Positions 4,591-63,723 of a stretch of DNA of 64,000 nt are shown one piece after another. The notes beneath the pieces were generated by a model. That model saw only the letters and a list, made by a program, of their open reading frames with translations, did not search any database and was not told the DNA's origin. This stretch comes from Gemmatimonadota bacterium. Lineage in GTDB: Bacteria; Gemmatimonadota; Gemmatimonadetes; Gemmatimonadales; GWC2-71-9. The stretch spans positions 158,524 through 222,523 of the forward strand of contig JAZKBR010000008.1 in NCBI GenBank assembly GCA_040388535.1, read 5' to 3'. The stretch's first letter is position 1, and each line of letters starts with the position of its first letter. A program made the translations under genes and the position numbers.

Positions 4591-5040
4591 GTGAAGCAGG
4601 GCCAAAATGGAAGGGGCAAAAGCGTTGTAACGTTAATTTCCACAACGACTTAGCACGCACCGTGCCAGACAAAAACCGGCCATGATGGCGCACTCAGGTG
4701 CTCAGGTGCAAGAGTGAGTACTCGCAATCGAGATGGTTATGTGAGTAACTGCTCATTTGGCGTTGTAAGTGACCACAGCGTAATGGATTTCGGAAAGGTG
4801 TCCGGAAATCGGGCAAGAATGGCGGTGGCTGTCGGAATGGCTGGTGCAGAGTGACACGAGAAGCGAGGAGGGGGAGGGGGAGGAGGGAGGAGAGAGGTAA
4901 GGTGTCTCCCTGAGCGAAGCGAGGGGGCTGGTCTCAACGTTGAGAGGGTGCTCCCTCGACTTCGCAGCCCCGCGGGCTGCTCCGCTCAGGATGACACTCT
5001 CCCTCCTCCCCTCCTCCTCTCCTCCCTGAGCCAGTTGATC
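4591..5040. other. Gene-free stretch between holB and tRNA-Asn
   Basis: About 450 bp hold no convincing gene. Open frames here are low-complexity translations of purine-rich sequence. The left part (4591-4855) is AT-richer than its surroundings, with no motif I can name. The right part is the hairpin repeat described separately (4859-5031). Confidence 0.6.
4859..5031. repeat. Composite inverted repeat element, copy 1 (purine arms plus CCTGAGCGAAGCGAGG core)
   Basis: A purine-rich arm (4859-4897, GAGAAGCGAGGAGGGGG-like) is mirrored by a pyrimidine-rich arm (4997-5030). Between them lies a core starting TCCCTGAGCGAAGCGAGG (4907-4924) and ending in CCGCTCAGGATGACAC (4983-4998), with an internal palindrome CTCAACGTTGAG (4933-4944). 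The core is the same element as at 63618-63723, in the opposite orientation, including a shared GAGAGGGTGCTCCCTCGACT stretch. It is related in its ends to the copies at 12.2 and 29.1 kb. Confidence 0.75.
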
Positions 5041-9434: not shown

Positions 9435-10778
9435 GTGTCGCCTGCTGCCTTGAACCGCGCCCTCGTCCTCCTCACGCTTGTCGCCTCAACGACCGCTGCG
9501 CCGCTGCGGGCGCAGGAAGGCTCTCCCGGTGGGCCAGTGCCCGTCGCATCGCTCCAGGCCCGTCGTGCGGCCTTCCTCGCCGCAATGCCGAAGGGCATCG
9601 CCGTCGTCGAAGCCGGCACGACCAAGAGCAACGATCTCGGTGACTACCCGCAGGACGGCGACTACCGGGAGCGAGCAAATTTCTTCTACTTCACCGGCAT
9701 CGAGAGTCCCGGCGGCCGGCTCGTGTTCATCCAGCCCGATTCCGGCAGCAGCCAGGGGCGCGTGCTCCTCTACCTCGCCGCGCCGCCCAAGCAACGCAAT
9801 GCCTGGTTCGCACCGACGATCGCGGCCGACACGGTCGCGGCTCGTCTCACCGGGCTGTCGATGGAACAGATCATCGCCGGTGGTGGCCCACCGGATGGAG
9901 CCGGCCCGACCGCGCTCCCGGCCGACAAGTTCACCACGGTCTCGGACTCCATCGCCAATGCCCTCTCGCTGTCGAAGCTCGCCCCGCGGGTGATCAGTCG
10001 GCTCATCACGCCGCTGCGATCGATCAAGGACGACGACGAGATCCGTCGCCTCCGTCGCGCCGGCGACATTTCGGCCGAGGCGCATCGTGCCGCGATGCTC
10101 AACGCGCGCCCCGGGATGTGGGAGTTCGAGATCGAGGCGATCGTCGAGTACACCTTCCGTCGTCGCGGCGCCGAGCGCGTGGGGTATCCGTCGATCGTCG
10201 GATCCGGTCCGAATACCACGACACTGCACTACGACCTCTCGCGCCGCCAGACCAAACCCGGTGACCTGGTGCTCATCGACGCGGCCGCCGAATTCGGCTA
10301 CTACTCCGCCGACCTGACGCGCACCTTTCCAGTCGATGGCAAGTTCACGCCGCGCCAGAAGGCGATCTACGAACTCGTCCTCGGCGCGCAGCAGGCGGCG
10401 ATCGATTCGGTACGCCCTGGCACGAACATGGTGGCACTGCACCAGATCGCCGCCAAGTACATGAAGGATCACTCGGGCACCCTCTGCGGCACCAAGACCT
10501 GCGACGCGTACTTCATCCATTTCCTGTCGCACACGGTGGGGCTCGATGTTCACGATGTCGGTGGCGGAAACCAGCCGCTCAAGGCCGGGATGACCTTCAC
10601 CATCGAGCCCGGCATCTATCTCCCCGAGGAGAATCTCGGCGTCCGGATCGAGGACGTGGTGCTGGTCACGGCGACCGGTTCGGAGAATCTCACCAAGGGC
10701 GCACCACGCACGGTGGCCGATATCGAGAAGCTGATGAGTCAGGGCAAGCTGCAGGGACTGAACGCGCTCAAGCCGTAG
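9435..10778 (+). CDS. Secreted M24-family Xaa-Pro aminopeptidase
   Basis: The 447-residue metallopeptidase removes N-terminal residues preceding proline. A signal peptide (ALVLLTLVASTTAAPLRAQ) directs export. An aminopeptidase-P N-terminal domain follows (RRAAFLAAMPKGIAVVEAGT, YFTGIESPGGRLVF). The pita-bread catalytic domain has all five metal ligands: Asp282 (LIDAAAEFG), Asp293 (SADLTRTFP), His366 (SHTVGLDVHDVGG), Glu391 (TIEPGIY) and Glu406 (VRIEDVV). GTG at 9435 is chosen because GGAGA lies at the right spacing and the signal peptide begins there; the frame continues open upstream into the terminator. It likely processes peptides in the periplasm. Confidence 0.9.
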   Translation: MSPAALNRALVLLTLVASTTAAPLRAQEGSPGGPVPVASLQARRAAFLAAMPKGIAVVEAGTTKSNDLGDYPQDGDYRERANFFYFTGIESPGGRLVFIQPDSGSSQGRVLLYLAAPPKQRNAWFAPTIAADTVAARLTGLSMEQIIAGGGPPDGAGPTALPADKFTTVSDSIANALSLSKLAPRVISRLITPLRSIKDDDEIRRLRRAGDISAEAHRAAMLNARPGMWEFEIEAIVEYTFRRRGAERVGYPSIVGSGPNTTTLHYDLSRRQTKPGDLVLIDAAAEFGYYSADLTRTFPVDGKFTPRQKAIYELVLGAQQAAIDSVRPGTNMVALHQIAAKYMKDHSGTLCGTKTCDAYFIHFLSHTVGLDVHDVGGGNQPLKAGMTFTIEPGIYLPEENLGVRIEDVVLVTATGSENLTKGAPRTVADIEKLMSQGKLQGLNALKP

Positions 10779-10805: not shown

Positions 10806-12224
10806 ATGGACAACGAAGCCTTCCGCCGTCACGGTCACGAGATCGTCGACTGGCTCGCGGACTACTTCCGCGATATCGAAACGCGGCCGATCGTCCCGGC
10901 AGTTGTGCCGGGCGATCTCCGCCGATCGCTCCCCACCGCGGCACCGCTGGCTGGTGAGCCATTCGAACAGATCCTCAGCGATTTTCGCGAGCAGGTACTC
11001 CCAGGCATCACCCACTGGGGCCATCCGGGGTGGTTCGCCTACTTCCCATCCAACACGTCGCCGCCCTCGGTGCTGGCCGAGTTTCTCACCGCCGGGCTCG
11101 GTGCCCAGTGCATGAGCTGGGTGACATCCCCTGCCGCAACCGAACTCGAGCAGGTGGTAATGGTCTGGTATCGCCAGCTGCTCGGCCTCTCCGACGCGTT
11201 CACCGGTGTCATTCAGGATTCGGCATCCACCGCGACCTTCGTGGCGTTCCTCACGGCGCGCGAGCGGCTGGCCGATGATGCCGGACGGATGACGGCCTAC
11301 TGGACTTCACAGGCGCATTCGTCGATCCCGAAGGGAGCACGACTGACCGGGATTCCGGTCGACCGCTGCCGGATCATTCCGGTTGATGATGCCTTCGCAA
11401 TGCGCTCGGACGCCCTCATGACCGCGATGGCCGAGGATGTCGAGCAAGGGCTGGTTCCCGGGATCGTGGTGGCAACGATAGGGACGACGTCGTCAACCGC
11501 CTGCGACCCGCTACGCTCGATTGGCGAGGCCGCGCGGCAGCACGGCGCGTGGTATCACGTGGATGGTGCCTACGGTGGCTCGGCGGCGATTCTTCCCGAG
11601 GCGCGACCACTGCTTGACGGTGTGGAACTCGCTGATTCGTTCGTGACCAATCCGCACAAGTGGATGATGACGAGTTTCGACTGCTCGACCTACTTCGTGC
11701 GCGATGTGGATGGGTTGCTGCGGACCTTCGCCGCAAACCCCGAATACCTCCGCACCCGCCACGACGCGGAAGTAGTCAACTATCGCGACTGGGGGATTCC
11801 CCTCGGCCGGCGTTTCCGCGCACTCAAGCTCTGGTTTGTGCTGCGTTCCTATGGCGTGGCCGGACTGCAGGCGCTGATCCGCAAGCATATCGCGATGGGG
11901 CAGCAGCTGGCGCAGTGGGTCGACGAGGCCGCAGGATGGGAGCGACTCGCCCCGGCACCGCTGGGGCTGGTCTGTCTCCGGCACGTGCCGAAAGCGCTCG
12001 CTGGAGATGAGGCAGTGCTCGCGGCACATAACGCGGCGCTGATGGAGCGTGTGAATGGGTCGGGGAGGGTCTACCTCACGCATACTGTGCTCGACGGCAA
12101 GTACGCGATCCGGGTCGCGATCGGCGCGTGGCGGACGGAGCGGCGGAATGTCGAGGAGGTATGGGAACTACTGAAACGAGAAGCGAGAAGCGAGAAGGGA
12201 GAAGCGGGGGCGCTGTCACCCTGA
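10806..12224 (+). CDS. PLP-dependent aromatic L-amino acid decarboxylase (group II)
   Basis: The 472-residue enzyme belongs to the fold-type I group II decarboxylases that turn aromatic amino acids (Trp, Tyr, DOPA, Phe) into amines. Markers are THWGHPGWFAYFPSNTSPPS near residues 70-90, VDGAYGGSA with the PLP-contacting Asp, and the Schiff-base lysine Lys285 in TNPHKWMMTSFDCS. Substrate cannot be read from sequence. The last 16 or so residues (REARSEKGEAGALSP) are encoded by an intergenic repeat: four 7-bp units GAGAAG(C/G) at 12178-12205 lie inside the gene, and the TGA stop at 12222 is the TGA of the repeat core CCCTGAACGAAG. The native C-terminus has apparently been replaced. Confidence 0.9.
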   Translation: MDNEAFRRHGHEIVDWLADYFRDIETRPIVPAVVPGDLRRSLPTAAPLAGEPFEQILSDFREQVLPGITHWGHPGWFAYFPSNTSPPSVLAEFLTAGLGAQCMSWVTSPAATELEQVVMVWYRQLLGLSDAFTGVIQDSASTATFVAFLTARERLADDAGRMTAYWTSQAHSSIPKGARLTGIPVDRCRIIPVDDAFAMRSDALMTAMAEDVEQGLVPGIVVATIGTTSSTACDPLRSIGEAARQHGAWYHVDGAYGGSAAILPEARPLLDGVELADSFVTNPHKWMMTSFDCSTYFVRDVDGLLRTFAANPEYLRTRHDAEVVNYRDWGIPLGRRFRALKLWFVLRSYGVAGLQALIRKHIAMGQQLAQWVDEAAGWERLAPAPLGLVCLRHVPKALAGDEAVLAAHNAALMERVNGSGRVYLTHTVLDGKYAIRVAIGAWRTERRNVEEVWELLKREARSEKGEAGALSP

Positions 12225-12341
12225 ACGAAGTGAGGGGGCGGAGCCTGGTACTGCAGCGATGCTCCGCCCCCTCGCTTTGCTCAGGGTGACTACGACTCTG
12301 CGGCGATTCACTCGCTTCTCCCTTCTCGCTTCTCCCTTCTC
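12178..12341. repeat. Composite inverted repeat element, copy 2 (GAGAAGC heptamer arms)
   Basis: Four heptamers GAGAAG(C/G) at 12178-12205 are mirrored by four (G/C)CTTCTC units at 12314-12341. The core begins TCACCCTGAACGAAGTGAGGGGGCGGAG (12216-12243) and ends with its near-complement CTCCGCCCCCTCGC, then TTTGCTCAGGGTGA (12262-12289). The element fills the whole space between the convergent decarboxylase and uvrA genes, reaching into the decarboxylase coding end and stopping 2 nt from the uvrA stop. It could act as a bidirectional terminator. Confidence 0.8.
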
Positions 12342-12343
12342 GA

Positions 12344-15127
12344 TCATCCTTCCGCGAGCACCCCTTTCAGGAACGTGCCGGTCCACGAGCCCGCGGTTGC
12401 GGCCACTTCTTCGGGCGTGCCCATCGCGACGATCTCGCCGCCGCCATCGCCGGCCTCGGGACCGAGATCGATGACCCAGTCGGCGCGCTTGATGACATCG
12501 AGATGGTGCTCGATGACCACCACGGTGTGGCCCGCGTCGACCAGCTTGTCGAGTACGCTGATCAGTACTCGCACATCGTCGAGGTGGAGACCCGTGGTGG
12601 GCTCGTCGAGCAGGTAGAGCTTGCGACCGCCACGCTTCTGCGCCGCGATCAGCTCACGAGCGATCTTGAGCCGCTGCGCTTCGCCGCCAGAAAGGGTGGT
12701 GGCCGGTTGCCCGAGGCGGAGATAGCCGAGCCCCACCTGTTGCAGCTGCCAGAGCGCGGCGCCCAGTTTCGGCTGATGCCGGAAGCGGCGGATCGCCTCG
12801 TCGACACTCCACTGCAGCACGTCGTGGATCGAGAAGCCCTGCAGCTTCACGTCGAGTACGGCACGCTTGAAGCGAGTCCCGCCGCAGACCTCGCACGGCA
12901 CGAAGACATCGGCGAGGAAGACCATCTCCACTTGCACGTGTCCGGCACCTTCGCACTCTTCGCAGCGGCCACCTGGCAGATTGAATGAGAAGGTCGCCGG
13001 CGTGTATTTCCGCTGCTTCGAGAGCGGGTGCGCCGCGAAGAGTTCGCGGATCTCGTCGTAGGCCTTGATATAGGTCACTGGATTCGAGCGGGGCGAGCGG
13101 CCGATCGGCGTCTGGTCGACCAGCACGACATCGGTGATGAGTTCCCAGCCCTGCATGGAATCGACTTCACCAACTTCTTCGCCCAGGTGCGTCTTGGCGG
13201 AGTGCTCGCCCTCGAGCCGGCGTTCGAGCTGCCGGTAGAGCACGTCGTAGGCGAAAGTACTCTTTCCCGAGCCCGACACGCCGGTGATGGCGGTGAGGGT
13301 ACCGAGCGGAATCCGCGCGTTGACGCCACGGAGATTGTGGAGCCGCGCGCCGCGCACCGAGAGCCACGCTGGCCCGAGCGGACGGCGCACACTCGGAATG
13401 CCGATCCGCTTGCGGCCGAGGAGATAGTCGGCGGTGAGGGTGTCGTGCGCATCCGCGACGGGGCCGCTGTGCACTAACTGGCCACCCTGTTCGCCGGCAC
13501 CCGGCCCGAGCTCGAGCATCCAGTCGGCGCCCTTGATCGCCGCGGGGTCGTGTTCCACCACCACCACGGTGTTGCCGAGGTCGCGCAGCCGGAAGAGCAG
13601 GGCGAGGAGCCGGTCGGTGTCGCGCGGATGGAGGCCGATCGACGGCTCATCGAGAACGTAGAGGGCATCGACGAGTCGTGAGCCGAGTGCATTGGACAGG
13701 GCGATGCGCTGGGCCTCGCCGCCGGAGAGAGTCCGCGTCTGGCGGTCGAGCGTGAGGTAGCCGAGGCCGACATCGCGGAGATACTCGACGCGACTCGCGA
13801 CCTGTTCGAGCACCAGGTCGGCGACGATGCGCGCCGTATCTGCGAGCTGCAAGCCGGCGAACCAGGCGTGGAGCTTGTCGACGCTGAGTGCGGCGACATC
13901 GGCGATGGTGCGTTCGGCCACGCGCACGGCGAGCGCCTCGGGGCGAAGTCGCGCACCGTGGCAGACGCTACACTGGTGGGCCAGCTGGTACTGCCGCAGG
14001 AAGACGCGGATGTACTGCTTGTAGCGCTTCTCTTCCAGCCCGACGAGGAAGGGAAAGATGCCGAGATATTTCCCCGACTTCCCGTGGAGCAGCGTCTCCT
14101 GCACCTCGGTCGGGAGCGTGTGCCACGGCGCGTCAATATCGGCGCCGAGCTTTTTCGCCGTCGAGGCGAGCAGCTGCCGCTTCGCTTCGTAGCGCGGCTT
14201 GGTCCACGGATCGATGGCGCCTTCACTGATCGATCGTTCCGGATCGGGGACCACGAGCGCGATGTCGTATTGCAGCACCGCGCCGAAGCCGTTGCAGGTG
14301 GGGCACGCCCCGCGCGGATTGTTGAACGAAAAGAGCGCCGGGGTGATCACGGCGGCTGGCGTGTCACAGTTGCTGCACGCTGGAAATTCGGTGAAGCGAA
14401 GGCGGCGAGCCTCGCCAAGCACCAGCGCGATCCCTTCGCCCTCATCGAAGGCGCTCGCGATGGCTTCGGCGATGCGACCGCGCTGATCCTCCACGGCCAC
14501 GAGCCGGTCGATGATGACGAGCACTTCCTTCGCGGCGATCAGGTCGAGCCCGTCAGGGAGTTCGTCGAGATGGAAGGCGGTATCATCGACGAGCAGACGG
14601 ACGAAGCCGAGGGCGCGCAGGTTCTCGACGGTGCCGGTGTGCGAGACGTGGGCCGATGGTGGCAGCGGGAAGGCGACCTGGATCCGGCCCGTCAGCGCAG
14701 CCAGGGTGGCGTCGGTACTCGACTGCGCCGTGTCGCGGCGCACCGGTGCGCCGCACTTGATGCAGAACTGTTCGCCGATGCGGGCCCAGAGGAGGCGCAG
14801 GTAGTCGTAGACCTCGGTCGCCGTTCCAACAGTGGAACGCGAGGACATCGCGGGGGCGCGTTGTTCGATCGCGACGGCAGGAGCGATCCCCTCGATGCGG
14901 TCCACCAGCGGCTTCGGCATCCGCTCGAGGAACTGCTTGGCATAGGTGGAGAGCGACTCGATGTAGCGGCGCTGGCCCTCGGCATACAGGGTATCGAACG
15001 CGAGCGAGCTCTTGCCGCAACCGGAAGGACCGGTGACGACAGTCAGGGAGCGGCGCGGAATCTCGACCGTGATGCCCTTGAGATTGTGCTGGCGTGCGTT
15101 GACGACGCGGATGACGGGGCGATGCAC
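12344..15127 (-). CDS. uvrA: UvrA-family excinuclease ABC subunit A
   Basis: The 927-residue protein has two ABC ATPase modules and is the damage-recognition subunit of nucleotide excision repair. Visible: Walker A GPSGCGKSS near residue 35 and GVSGSGKST in the C half, two LSGGEAQR signatures, DEPSIGLHPRD and DEPTTGLHLDD Walker B regions, and zinc-knuckle cysteines (CSNC...CPTCNGFG; CEECEGAG...CEVCGG). The GTG at 15127 (VHRPVIRVVNARQHNLKG) is chosen: TACGTTTC stands 4 nt upstream, and the further open frame to 15238 is only translated repeat sequence. Being distinct in some linker motifs, it could be a UvrA paralogue; uvrB and uvrC are not in the window. Confidence 0.88.
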   Translation of the reverse strand: MHRPVIRVVNARQHNLKGITVEIPRRSLTVVTGPSGCGKSSLAFDTLYAEGQRRYIESLSTYAKQFLERMPKPLVDRIEGIAPAVAIEQRAPAMSSRSTVGTATEVYDYLRLLWARIGEQFCIKCGAPVRRDTAQSSTDATLAALTGRIQVAFPLPPSAHVSHTGTVENLRALGFVRLLVDDTAFHLDELPDGLDLIAAKEVLVIIDRLVAVEDQRGRIAEAIASAFDEGEGIALVLGEARRLRFTEFPACSNCDTPAAVITPALFSFNNPRGACPTCNGFGAVLQYDIALVVPDPERSISEGAIDPWTKPRYEAKRQLLASTAKKLGADIDAPWHTLPTEVQETLLHGKSGKYLGIFPFLVGLEEKRYKQYIRVFLRQYQLAHQCSVCHGARLRPEALAVRVAERTIADVAALSVDKLHAWFAGLQLADTARIVADLVLEQVASRVEYLRDVGLGYLTLDRQTRTLSGGEAQRIALSNALGSRLVDALYVLDEPSIGLHPRDTDRLLALLFRLRDLGNTVVVVEHDPAAIKGADWMLELGPGAGEQGGQLVHSGPVADAHDTLTADYLLGRKRIGIPSVRRPLGPAWLSVRGARLHNLRGVNARIPLGTLTAITGVSGSGKSTFAYDVLYRQLERRLEGEHSAKTHLGEEVGEVDSMQGWELITDVVLVDQTPIGRSPRSNPVTYIKAYDEIRELFAAHPLSKQRKYTPATFSFNLPGGRCEECEGAGHVQVEMVFLADVFVPCEVCGGTRFKRAVLDVKLQGFSIHDVLQWSVDEAIRRFRHQPKLGAALWQLQQVGLGYLRLGQPATTLSGGEAQRLKIARELIAAQKRGGRKLYLLDEPTTGLHLDDVRVLISVLDKLVDAGHTVVVIEHHLDVIKRADWVIDLGPEAGDGGGEIVAMGTPEEVAATAGSWTGTFLKGVLAEG

Positions 15128-15142: not shown

Positions 15143-15253
15143 GATGAAGGATGAGGGATGACAGATGACAGATGACGGATGACAGATGACCGATGTTCGG
15201 AGGAGGGATCTCCCCGCCCGGGATCCGTCATCTGTCATCTGTCATCTGTCATC
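15143..15253. repeat. Inverted heptamer-array element, copy 3 (GATGACA type)
   Basis: Seven consecutive 7-bp units of the form GATGANN (15143-15191, mostly GATGACA) are mirrored by four (T/C)GTCATC units (15226-15253: one CGTCATC, three TGTCATC). The 34-bp centre contains GGGATCTCC and CGGGATCC. The element occupies the divergent space between uvrA and the rightward flippase-like gene. Translated in frame, it creates an artificial N-terminal extension of uvrA. Confidence 0.8.
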
Positions 15254-20880: not shown

Positions 20881-21942
20881 CTAGTTCAGCAGGTCGGCGA
20901 GCAGGTAGAGCCGGCCATCGGTTTTCCGCACTACCACCCGTGTCCTGTCGGGTGAGAGCCGCGCAACTTCCGGGACAGCGCGCCCGATAAAGGTCTGCAG
21001 GATCGACGCCTGACCAGTGGCGAGCGAGATGCGCCAGATATTGCTCGAGGCGACGCTGCCCCCCCCCGCCTCTCGGGTGACGACCAGACAGAGTTCCTGC
21101 TGACAGCTGAGACTTACGACGGCCCGTGATGGCGCGAATGGCAGGGTGTCGACGATGCGCTCCGGGCCGCCAGCAACCGGCAGGGCAACGATCACATTTC
21201 CCGGCTTGTCATACACGATGGTGCTGCCTCCCTCGGCCGATGCGAAGCGCCCGATGGCGGCGGTGCCGGGGATGATGGTGAGCAACGTGGTGTCGCGCGA
21301 AATGACCCCGTGCGTGATGCCGAACGGCGTCAACAGCGAATCGGGGCGGAGATAGTAGGCGCGCGCAATGAAAGCACCCGATCCGGCCCACTGCAGGTCG
21401 GTGAGCCAGTTGATCTGATCGGGCGTCACGGTGGGATGGCCATTGTCGTCGCGGTAGAGCCGCAGGAGGTGCCTGCGCTGGGCGTACGGTGCGTGTCGGG
21501 AACCGAGCCAGAGTTCGGCCTCGGTGCCTACCGGAAAAAAGAAGCCTGGGCGCTGGTGGGTTTGCATGTAGAGCAACTCTCCCATCCCGCCTACGGCCGC
21601 GCTGACAAACACATCGTTGGAATCGCGATAGTGGGTCAGGGTCCGGTCACACAACTGCCAGATCATGCTTCCGCCGGCCGCGGGAATGAGCCCGAGACAG
21701 TTGTCGAGCGGATCCTTGCGTCCGACGCCAACGAGTAGCGGGAGGTCGTAACTCTCGTTCGGTCGGGGCATGAGGAGCAGCACGCCAGAGCCGTCACCCG
21801 CCCAATCAAAATCTCCGTAGGCCCCGACGGTGAGTTGACCATCGGCGTTCAGGGGGCCATCGGCGCGACCCGACGTGCCGACGAACGGTTCTGAGTGTCC
21901 GCATGCTGCAAGCGCGATCGCCAGCAGGAAGGTCCGTCGCAT
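20881..21942 (-). CDS. Lipoprotein, probable beta-propeller
   Basis: The 353-residue product begins MRRTFLLAIALAACGHSE, a lipoprotein signal with lipid cysteine at about 14. The mature part is beta-rich, with repeated W/Y-containing strands and phrases such as WAGDGSGVLLL, LQWAGSGAFIARAYYL, RFASAEGGSTIVYD and NIWRISLATGQASILQ, then RLSPDRTRVVVRKTDGRLYLL. These resemble TolB/WD40-like (PD40) propeller blades. No catalytic motif is seen. It starts 15 nt after the HD-domain gene and is probably its operon partner. Confidence 0.7.
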   Translation of the reverse strand: MRRTFLLAIALAACGHSEPFVGTSGRADGPLNADGQLTVGAYGDFDWAGDGSGVLLLMPRPNESYDLPLLVGVGRKDPLDNCLGLIPAAGGSMIWQLCDRTLTHYRDSNDVFVSAAVGGMGELLYMQTHQRPGFFFPVGTEAELWLGSRHAPYAQRRHLLRLYRDDNGHPTVTPDQINWLTDLQWAGSGAFIARAYYLRPDSLLTPFGITHGVISRDTTLLTIIPGTAAIGRFASAEGGSTIVYDKPGNVIVALPVAGGPERIVDTLPFAPSRAVVSLSCQQELCLVVTREAGGGSVASSNIWRISLATGQASILQTFIGRAVPEVARLSPDRTRVVVRKTDGRLYLLADLLN

Positions 21943-21957
21943 CCGACGCTCGAACGT

Positions 21958-23193
21958 TCAGGAGGGGGTGAGCAACTCGCGGGGAATGCCGTCGAGCTTG
22001 CGCGGTTCACTCGTGAAGATTCGCAGCCGACGCGCCGTGCGATAGAGTTCGTCGGCGACGCGGGGCAGGCCGAGCTGCCCGCTGCGTCCCTCATCGGTGA
22101 GGCGCTCGACCGTGCCTCCGCGCGTCAGCAAGGGCAGATCTACCTCGAGCATGTTGGCACGCTCGGGGTAATCGATGAGCACACCGCCGTTGGGCAGTTT
22201 CAGCGCGCGCGCGAGCGCATCCTCCGCCTCGGCCAGCCGCACCGGATCGTTCCAGAGCCAGTCGGGGAGATCCGCTGGCACCGCAGTGGCCGGGAGATCG
22301 AGCGCGCGCTTGTAGAGGCGCCGCTCGTGTACACCCCGCGCGAGGCCGGTCGGGTCGAGTTCGAGCAGCAGGGTCGTGAGTGTGCCGTCGGTCGCGTCGG
22401 CCACCGTGGCGACATCGAGCGCGCCAGTGGCAACGGTGGCGCGCACGGCGCGCTTGAACATGCAGGTCGCCGAGCGCACCGCGTGATGCCAGTAGACGTT
22501 GCGATACATCTGGTACTTGGCGAAGAGGAGTGATTCCAGTGCGCTGGTTCCCTTTTCCTGCACGCCGACTTCGCGGCCCCCTGTTGCGTTATCCAGGAGC
22601 GAGATCGAGGCGAGCAGGCGATCGACATCGACTTGTCCATAGGGCACCCCGCACATCCGCGCATCGCGACTGAGATAATCGATCTTGTCGAGATCAATCG
22701 AGCCGGAGATCAACCCCCCGAGCGGCGAATCGCTGGTGCCCTGAATCAAGGCGGCGATGGCATCGATGAGCGGCTCGCCACCCAGAGAGCGCAGCACCTC
22801 ACCGAGCTCACCGGTGCGAAGACGTGCCGCGCCAAGACTCTCGTGATGCGTGAAGCCGGCTTCTTCGAGCGCGTGCGAGAAGGGATAGTGACCGATGTCG
22901 TGCAACAAGGCGGCGAGGCGGACCGCGAGCCGCGCTTCTTCGTCGATGCCGTCGAGATCCCCGCGCTCATTGAGCGATGCGAGCGCGCGGCGCGTGAGAT
23001 GGTAGGCGCCGAGCGCGTGTTCGAAGCGCGAATGGGTGGCGCCGGGGTAGACGAGGAAGGCGTGGCCGAGCTGGCGAATGTGACGGAGGCGCTGCACCGT
23101 GGGCGTGTCGAGCGCCGCGACGGCGGCGGGCTCAAGACGGATGTTGTCCCAGAGCGGATCGCGGATGATTTCGGGTGCCTGGCGTGGGAGCAC
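21958..23193 (-). CDS. HD-domain phosphohydrolase (YwfO/SAMHD1-like)
   Basis: The 411-residue protein has the HD superfamily metal centre: THSRFEHALG at about 53-62, and LLHDIGHYPFSHALE with His98-Asp99, plus a downstream SGSIDLDKIDYLSRDARM segment that carries a third Asp ligand. This layout is typical of dNTP triphosphohydrolase-like proteins related to SAMHD1 and Bacillus YwfO. The substrate is therefore probably a nucleoside triphosphate, but this is inferred. GTG at 23193 is chosen because GAGGGG lies just upstream; the open frame to 23394 lacks conservation signs. The lipoprotein gene follows. Confidence 0.85.
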   Translation of the reverse strand: MLPRQAPEIIRDPLWDNIRLEPAAVAALDTPTVQRLRHIRQLGHAFLVYPGATHSRFEHALGAYHLTRRALASLNERGDLDGIDEEARLAVRLAALLHDIGHYPFSHALEEAGFTHHESLGAARLRTGELGEVLRSLGGEPLIDAIAALIQGTSDSPLGGLISGSIDLDKIDYLSRDARMCGVPYGQVDVDRLLASISLLDNATGGREVGVQEKGTSALESLLFAKYQMYRNVYWHHAVRSATCMFKRAVRATVATGALDVATVADATDGTLTTLLLELDPTGLARGVHERRLYKRALDLPATAVPADLPDWLWNDPVRLAEAEDALARALKLPNGGVLIDYPERANMLEVDLPLLTRGGTVERLTDEGRSGQLGLPRVADELYRTARRLRIFTSEPRKLDGIPRELLTPS

Positions 23194-29005: not shown

Positions 29006-29027
29006 AGCAACAGGATGACGGAGGGCG

Positions 29028-29221
29028 GATGACAGATGACAGATGACAGATGACAGAAGTGTCATCCTGAGCACAGCGGCCGTCAGGCCGCGGAGTCGAA
29101 GGACCTCTTGCCGATGGTAGGGGGTCCTTCGATTTCGCCCGCTGCGCGGGCTCCACTCAGGATGACAAACTCCGCGACCCGTCATCCATCATCTGTCATC
29201 TGTCATCTGTCATCTGTCGTC
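29028..29221. repeat. Composite inverted repeat element, copy 4 (GATGACA arms plus CCTGAGC core)
   Basis: Four exact GATGACA units (29028-29055) are mirrored by TGTCATC, TGTCATC, TGTCATC and TGTCGTC (29194-29221). The core starts GTGTCATCCTGAGC (29059-29072) and ends CACTCAGGATGACAAAC (29154-29170), so both ends also contain the heptamer. Inside are palindromes GGCCG...CGGCC and GAAGGACC...GGTCCTTC. It fills the convergent gap between the GGDEF gene and envC. Confidence 0.8.
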
Positions 29222-53104: not shown

Positions 53105-53224
53105 GATGACAGATGACAGATGACAGATGATGGATACGGAAAGGCCGGCACCTCGAGGGGATGTCGGCCTCCGCTGTTCATCTGTCATCTGTCAACTGTC
53201 ATCTGTCATCTGTCATCCATCATC
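53105..53224. repeat. Inverted heptamer-array element, copy 5 (GATGACA type)
   Basis: Three exact GATGACA units plus GATGATG (53105-53132) are mirrored by five units TGTCATC/TGTCAAC (53183-53217) and CATCATC (53218-53224). The centre holds a hairpin AGGCCG...CGGCCT (53142-53170). The right arm reaches into the stop codon of hisG (53220-53222). It lies between convergent genes and has the shape of a large two-way terminator. Confidence 0.8.
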
Positions 53225-53843
53225 CCCTCAGTCTCGCCATCAATCCCAGGTGCGCCTCCAGCTTCAGCTTCTGACTCGCACGGTTCGCGACGAGGATGGC
53301 GCTGCTCTCGAGCATCGTGACGCGTTCGGTGAGTCCGTTGGCCCGCAGCGTCGCCCCCGTATCTACCAGGTCAACGATCCAGTCGGCGAGGCCGAGCAGC
53401 GGGGCCACTTCGACGCTGCCGCTGATCTCGATCACTTCCACGGCGCGCCCCATCGCGGCAAAATGGGCGCGAGCCAATCGCGGGTACTTGCTGGCGACGC
53501 GCGGCGTATTGCCGTGCGCGAGGTTGGGGTAGCTGGTTGACGTTGGTGCCGCGACGACCAGCCGGCAGGCCCCGAAGCCCAGATCGAGCGGTTCGAGCAC
53601 GTCGGCGTCTGCCTCCCGCAACACATCACTGCCAGTCACGCCCAGATCGGCGGCACCCGACTCCACATACACCGGCACATCACCCGGCTTCACTACCAGG
53701 ATCTCGAGGCCGGGCTCGCTGGTGCCGATCAGCAGCTTGCGACCGGCATCGCCATCGACCGTGATCCCGGCGGCGGCGAGTCGCGCGACGGCCCCATCGT
53801 AGAGTCGACCCTTGGCGAGCGCCATGCGAAGCGTGGTGCTCAC
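53220..53843 (-). CDS. hisG: ATP phosphoribosyltransferase, short form
   Basis: The 207-residue enzyme joins ATP and PRPP in the first step of histidine synthesis. It is the short form lacking the C-terminal regulatory domain: MALAKGRLYDGAVARL, DVPVYVESGAADLGVTGSDVL (family-typical), and the PRPP-binding EISGSVEVAPLLGLADWIVDLVDTGATLRANGL. Short HisG requires HisZ, which is encoded just upstream with an ATGA overlap. Its stop codon lies inside a repeat arm. Confidence 0.95.
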   Translation of the reverse strand: MSTTLRMALAKGRLYDGAVARLAAAGITVDGDAGRKLLIGTSEPGLEILVVKPGDVPVYVESGAADLGVTGSDVLREADADVLEPLDLGFGACRLVVAAPTSTSYPNLAHGNTPRVASKYPRLARAHFAAMGRAVEVIEISGSVEVAPLLGLADWIVDLVDTGATLRANGLTERVTMLESSAILVANRASQKLKLEAHLGLMARLRG

Positions 53844-63617: not shown

Positions 63618-63723
63618 AGGAGTTGTCGTCCTGAGCGAAGCGAGCCGAAGGCGAGCGTAGTCGAGGGAGCACCCTCTCGCCGTCGAGACCAGCCCCCTCG
63701 CTGCGCTCAGGGGGACAACCTCC
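63618..63723. repeat. Inverted repeat core, copy 6 (no heptamer arms)
   Basis: Starts AGGAGTTGTCGTCCTGAGCG and ends with the near-complement CGCTCAGGGGGACAACCTCC. Its reverse complement matches the core at 4901-4998 along nearly its full length, including a GGGGCTGGTCTC run and a GAGAGGGTGCTCCCTCGACT run. It lies 3 nt after the kinase stop, so it may serve as its terminator. Confidence 0.75.

Follow-up and report, generated by a model that had tools for sequence, protein, structure and literature searches.

The closest described relatives of the repeats analyzed here are the GGGAATC heptamers of Xanthomonas, 7-bp purine-rich tandem repeats that form many convergent inverted pairs and lie in proximity to stop codons (Rehm et al., 2015, PMC4692102). 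Heptamer copies capable of forming a G-quadruplex (G4) more often coincide with the starts or ends of Xanthomonas transcripts, and in that study two species did not share genes with prominent repeats (PMC4692102). The TAACTGA repeats of Beggiatoaceae differ in that they point to start codons and rarely form inverted pairs; because TAACTGA contains stop codons, its overlap with a gene end is limited to 18 nt (PMC4679880), whereas the GAGAAGS unit described below is free of stops. Dispersed hairpin repeats that lengthen conserved proteins by translated sequence are also known, namely Rickettsia palindromic elements and coding MITEs (PMC2229807), but there one element of ∼100–150 bp is fused in frame, whereas here an array and a separate palindrome add a short tail and a stop. 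The REP/BIME sequences with their RAYT genes are similar in that short dispersed palindromes lie at gene ends and the genome contains Y1-type transposase genes. REP palindromes flank the RAYT gene, however, whereas no core lies beside either Y1_Tnp gene here, and REP anatomy is not known to include heptamer arrays. A literature search found nothing on the palindrome core described below and nothing on repeats of this kind in Gemmatimonadota.

The repeat unit between a decarboxylase gene and uvrA is a variant of the stop-proximal paired heptamers known from Xanthomonas, with which it shares the excess of period 7, convergent inverted pairing, and proximity to stops in the same sense. The units found here (GAGAAGC, GATGACA, GACGAGA) have no GGG tracts of the G-quadruplex type, so the arrays would work like the Xanthomonas group but are not a G4 repeat. 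Xanthomonas has one G-quadruplex-type unit per genus, whereas several units occur per genome here and differ between species; a loop palindrome, the appearance of different units at one and the same orthologous gene end, and the explicit extension of C-termini are further differences. What is new is that the unit changes in both arms together at the ends of orthologous genes, and that a stop-free unit provides a way to lengthen a C-terminus.

The window is a stretch of 64,000 nt (positions 158524–222523 of contig C8 in genome G000, 3.72 Mb), and the close relatives compared with it are Gemmatimonadota metagenome-assembled genomes (MAGs). The right arm is the reverse complement of the left array, 97% complementary over 30 nt, and the RNA of positions 12165–12350 is predicted to fold into a single long hairpin (−128.4 kcal/mol, z −13.65). 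The left array is not a product of chance, since it scores as a period-7 tandem repeat, has a complementary arm, and consists of a unit whose triple form (GAGAAGS) has 120 matches in the genome, while the palindrome core (GTCACCCTGARCGAAG) has 173 matches at no more than one mismatch, against 0 for the backwards-read control in each case; a short dispersed palindrome, one trait of REP/RAYT systems, is present. Because the aligned ends of the decarboxylase and UvrA touch in relative G001, the repeat unit makes up the entire spacer in the window. The aligned end of UvrA in congeners reaches residues 913–918 of 919. Despite the strong hairpin, the search for an intrinsic terminator (GC hairpin plus U-tract) found 0 here. 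Among known RNA families only sub-threshold miRNA-precursor models matched; they fit a long hairpin and are regarded as chance matches.

Table 1. Coordinates of the features discussed. Positions are those of the window unless a locus is named.
Feature	Position	Strand	Remark
PLP-dependent (group II) decarboxylase ORF, 472 aa	10806–12224	+	last 11 residues and stop are repeat DNA
Repeat-encoded C-terminal extension SEKGEAGALSP, residues 462–472	12189–12221	+	absent in repeat-free orthologues
Decarboxylase stop TGA	12222–12224	+	within palindrome core
Whole stem-loop unit	12173–12342		one hairpin, decarboxylase–uvrA spacer
Left arm, purine-rich 7-bp array, unit GAGAAG(C/G)	12173–12206	+	stop-free in all forward frames
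Dispersed palindrome GTCACCCTGAACGAAG...CTCAGGGTGAC	12215–12290		nested between arrays
Right arm, inverse 7-bp array	12311–12342	-	1 nt before uvrA stop codon
uvrA, convergent neighbour	12344–15127	-	C-terminus without repeat extension
purD (phosphoribosylamine-glycine ligase, core purine gene)	L149:4154–5452	-	repeat-encoded end REKGEERREG

The decarboxylase carries the Pyridoxal_deC domain (Pfam PF00282, E 1.8e-95), in keeping with a group II PLP-dependent enzyme, and because the match covers only residues 35–392 the conserved domain finishes well upstream of the tail. The protein ends in WELLKREARSEKGEAGALSP, that is, in LLKREAR, native-like through REAR, followed by SEKGEAGALSP and the stop. 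The initial annotation, made from the sequence of the window, held that four GAGAAG(C/G) units (12178–12205) are translated in frame near this end, and the coordinates agree: GAGAAGC at 12178–12184 and 12185–12191, GAGAAGG at 12192–12198, and GAGAAGC at 12199–12205. It also traced the stop codon to a dispersed repeat core, and the TGA is indeed located in CCCTGAACGAAG (12219–12230), within the segment GTCACCCTGAACGAAG where the palindrome begins. The coding units and the stop had been attributed to one element; this part does not hold, as the stop is in the palindrome, the coding units are in a separate 7-bp array pair, and the two occur apart elsewhere.

The decarboxylase–uvrA junction is conserved within the genus. 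Orthologues without a 7-bp array there end in IIRDAAR (G001), LLLANA (G003), and LLRAEAR (G006), with the stop at the equivalent of residue ∼461, and have no 11-residue tail. The whole of REARSEKGEA had been taken as foreign: the SEKGEA part is absent from the repeat-free orthologues, but REAR is similar to native ends. Since LLKREAR aligns with the native LLRAEAR and IIRDAAR, each followed directly by a stop, the terminus was extended by 11 residues and not replaced as had been suggested, although the stop is supplied by the repeat. The nearest repeat-free relatives, at ∼75% protein identity, are too distant to define insertion junctions or a target-site duplication.

One congener, G002, has the same arrangement. 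Its decarboxylase ends in LLKREARDERGETKGSS, terminated by the corresponding TGA of a related palindrome (GTCATCCTGAACGAAGCGAAGG), four degenerate heptamers (GAGAGGC CAGAGAC GAGAGAG GAGAGAC) precede the palindrome, and the alignment with the window covers the array as well as both palindrome arms. The two genomes share ∼74% amino-acid identity over UvrA, PurD, and the decarboxylase, and a tree with weak support does not group them as sisters, so the shared arrangement is either old or arose twice; common descent is more likely than two parallel events. This does not fit the recent, datable insertion initially envisaged. In three other congeners the decarboxylase stop lies within different 7-bp arrays (GAGTCGG/TAGTCGT in G004, GTGAAAC/GTGAAAG in G007, ACGTGAG in G009), each with its own complementary arm downstream. 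The predicted fold of the spacer RNA has z values of −5.93 (G007), −2.96 (G009), −2.11 (G004), and −1.94 (G002), and of −0.37 to 0.87 in three repeat-free spacers.

The gene purD provides a second case of the effect that the initial annotation had proposed for the decarboxylase, namely that the repeat can alter proteins. Its product ends in GWREAARREKGEERREG in G000 and in GWREKERAR in the repeat-free G006. Arrays are found at purD in G002, G004, G005, and G009, and those of G004 and G009 cover the stop codon with another unit sequence. The purD stop TGA of G000 shares bases with the ATG of the gene that follows, which has a mutM-like start (MPELPEVETLV). For a further gene of the ATP-grasp type (L136, 8571–9680) there was no orthologue close enough to judge the tail.

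Genome statistics were obtained by pattern searches and from a 464-kb sample of G000, namely the window plus twenty 20-kb stretches, a few of them placed near known matches and some perhaps richer in repeats than average. Period-7 arrays number 42 in this sample, compared with 0–3 for periods 5, 6, and 8–11, and an inverted partner within 350 bp accompanies 17 of 32 exact period-7 arrays and none of those with the other periods tested. A same-sense stop lies no more than 35 bp from the array start in 24 of 42 cases (expected 5.7, maximum 12 in 300 trials, with placement in non-coding DNA as the null), whereas opposite-sense stops are near only 2 of the 42; read in the coding sense, the purine-rich arm precedes the other. 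Eleven of the 42 overlap a gene end as called by a simple home-made caller, and among the called genes no tripeptide at the C-terminus stood out as a mark of the arrays. Palindrome arms lie near arrays in 13 of 35 cases (chance mean 4.6).

Array position is retained between species while the unit changes. With a score threshold of at least 10, a period-7 array is found at the decarboxylase end in 4 of 7 congeners and at the purD end in 4 of 6, mostly with different unit sequences, in a comparison confined to these two gene ends, both picked for their array in G000. The base rate at gene ends under the same scoring is 33/375 in G000, 11/154 in the G009 sample, and 0/58 in G006; G007 is richer in arrays, with 7 of 17 gene ends in one 20-kb stretch. 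The units vary from genome to genome: GATGACA and GAGAAGG in G000, GACGAGA in G001 and G009, GGTGAAA and GGTCGTA in G007, GAGAAGA in G004, and GAGAAGT in G023. The backwards-read control pattern GAAGAGNGAAGAGNGAAGAG has 56 matches in G011 and 26 in G004, and these two genomes therefore carry yet other 7-bp units. The G006 stretches (L119–L121), without arrays at their 58 gene ends, offer a natural array-free comparison within the same genus.

It is quite probable that at the decarboxylase an inverted 7-bp pair with its loop palindrome formed over the native stop, and that read-through to the TGA produced a passive extension of 11 residues. Arrays would arise preferentially at gene 3′ ends with the purine-rich arm first; here array formation would have covered the native stop, and translation would continue through the array to the next in-frame stop, the TGA of the palindrome. 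The array can be translated through because GAGAAG(C/G) is stop-free in all forward frames (reading E-K-R-E-A-R-S), and the TGA of the palindrome core is the next stop in one of three frames, the one used by the decarboxylase. Units of the GATGACA type contain TGA, and since 7 equals 1 modulo 3 they stop every frame within three units; offering a stop in every frame, such arrays add few residues, with ends such as QDDR and MDDR. The paired arrays probably act as a two-way 3′-end hairpin between genes without a U-tract, a role with which the transcript starts and stops at Xanthomonas heptamers would agree by analogy. The tail is presumably tolerated rather than useful.

Alternatively, the array may have grown in place from native codons, a coding seed resembling GAGAGGCGAG (REA) having been amplified in 7-bp slippage steps and the palindrome being separate. 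The native-like REAR and the presence of CGAGAGGC at the same point in G004 and G002 speak for such growth, as does the heptamer excess of many bacteria, which has been ascribed to slippage (PMC4679880, citing earlier work). We nevertheless consider it rather unlikely, as the unit is widely dispersed (the 120 triple-unit matches) and slippage confined to a single seed does not account for the complementary array on the uvrA side. Insertion of the whole of 12173–12342 in one piece, as a REP/MITE-like non-autonomous element moved by a RAYT-type transposase, is an improbable origin. The dispersal of the palindrome (173 matches), its arms lying near arrays more often than by chance, and two Y1-transposase-like genes in G000 would suit a single mobile element, but arrays also occur without the core in the window (15143–15253 and 53105–53225), many palindromes have no array, and the unit at the same site varies between genomes. 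A linkage to RAYT was rejected, the core being absent within ∼1.5 kb on either side of both Y1_Tnp genes.

A native, functional C-terminus that resembles the repeat only secondarily is a very improbable explanation of the tail: G002 does retain the frame and has a similarly long K/R/E-rich tail, yet the tail is absent from repeat-free orthologues in the genus, and in both G000 and G002 it is what in-phase purine-rich heptamers encode. Tandem repeats are prone to error, and the open frame might reflect an assembly or indel error with the true stop located earlier, but the independent genome G002 has the same frame and stop, and no altered number of stop-free units can restore a stop inside the array, which makes an error of this kind the most implausible of the origins considered. 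Extension by formation of the array pair and palindrome over the native stop is the reading retained here. A broader proposal is put forward tentatively, and we hold it to be possible rather than probable: particular gene ends in the genus may keep an array hairpin while its unit is replaced from species to species, in both arms together, the arrays being a rapidly changing 3′-end module that rewrites stop codons and C-termini repeatedly as it turns over.

The decarboxylase illustrates one concrete way in which repeat DNA can lengthen conserved bacterial proteins, with an array of stop-free units growing over the gene end and translation running on to the next stop. Different repeats at the same spot in relatives indicate that 7-letter repeats arise again and again at gene ends and at times change proteins. 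Because relatives have different arrays at shared gene ends, natural replicates exist within the genus for distinguishing a selected 3′-end structure from a tolerated mutational product, the same question that the Xanthomonas heptamers raise.

Several further copies were observed in G000. Inverted GATGACA array pairs lie between convergent genes at 29014–29218, where the palindrome core is present in the loop, and at 53105–53225, where it is absent; the gene at 53220–53825 (minus strand) has its stop inside a GATGACA array. Another inverted GATGACA pair (15143–15253) is immediately upstream of uvrA, and the mechanically called uvrA ORF begins within it (SVICHPSSVICHPSS); an annotation adopting that start would be over-long, since the start falls inside the array pair. 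At 4904–4996 and 63625–63716 the palindrome family GTC(N)(C/T)CCTGAGCG has more copies, which lack clean 7-bp GAGAAG arrays. Palindrome clusters with a near-regular tandem spacing of ∼85–100 bp, resembling BIME clusters, occur on contig C1 at 21446–22010 and 10176–10466.
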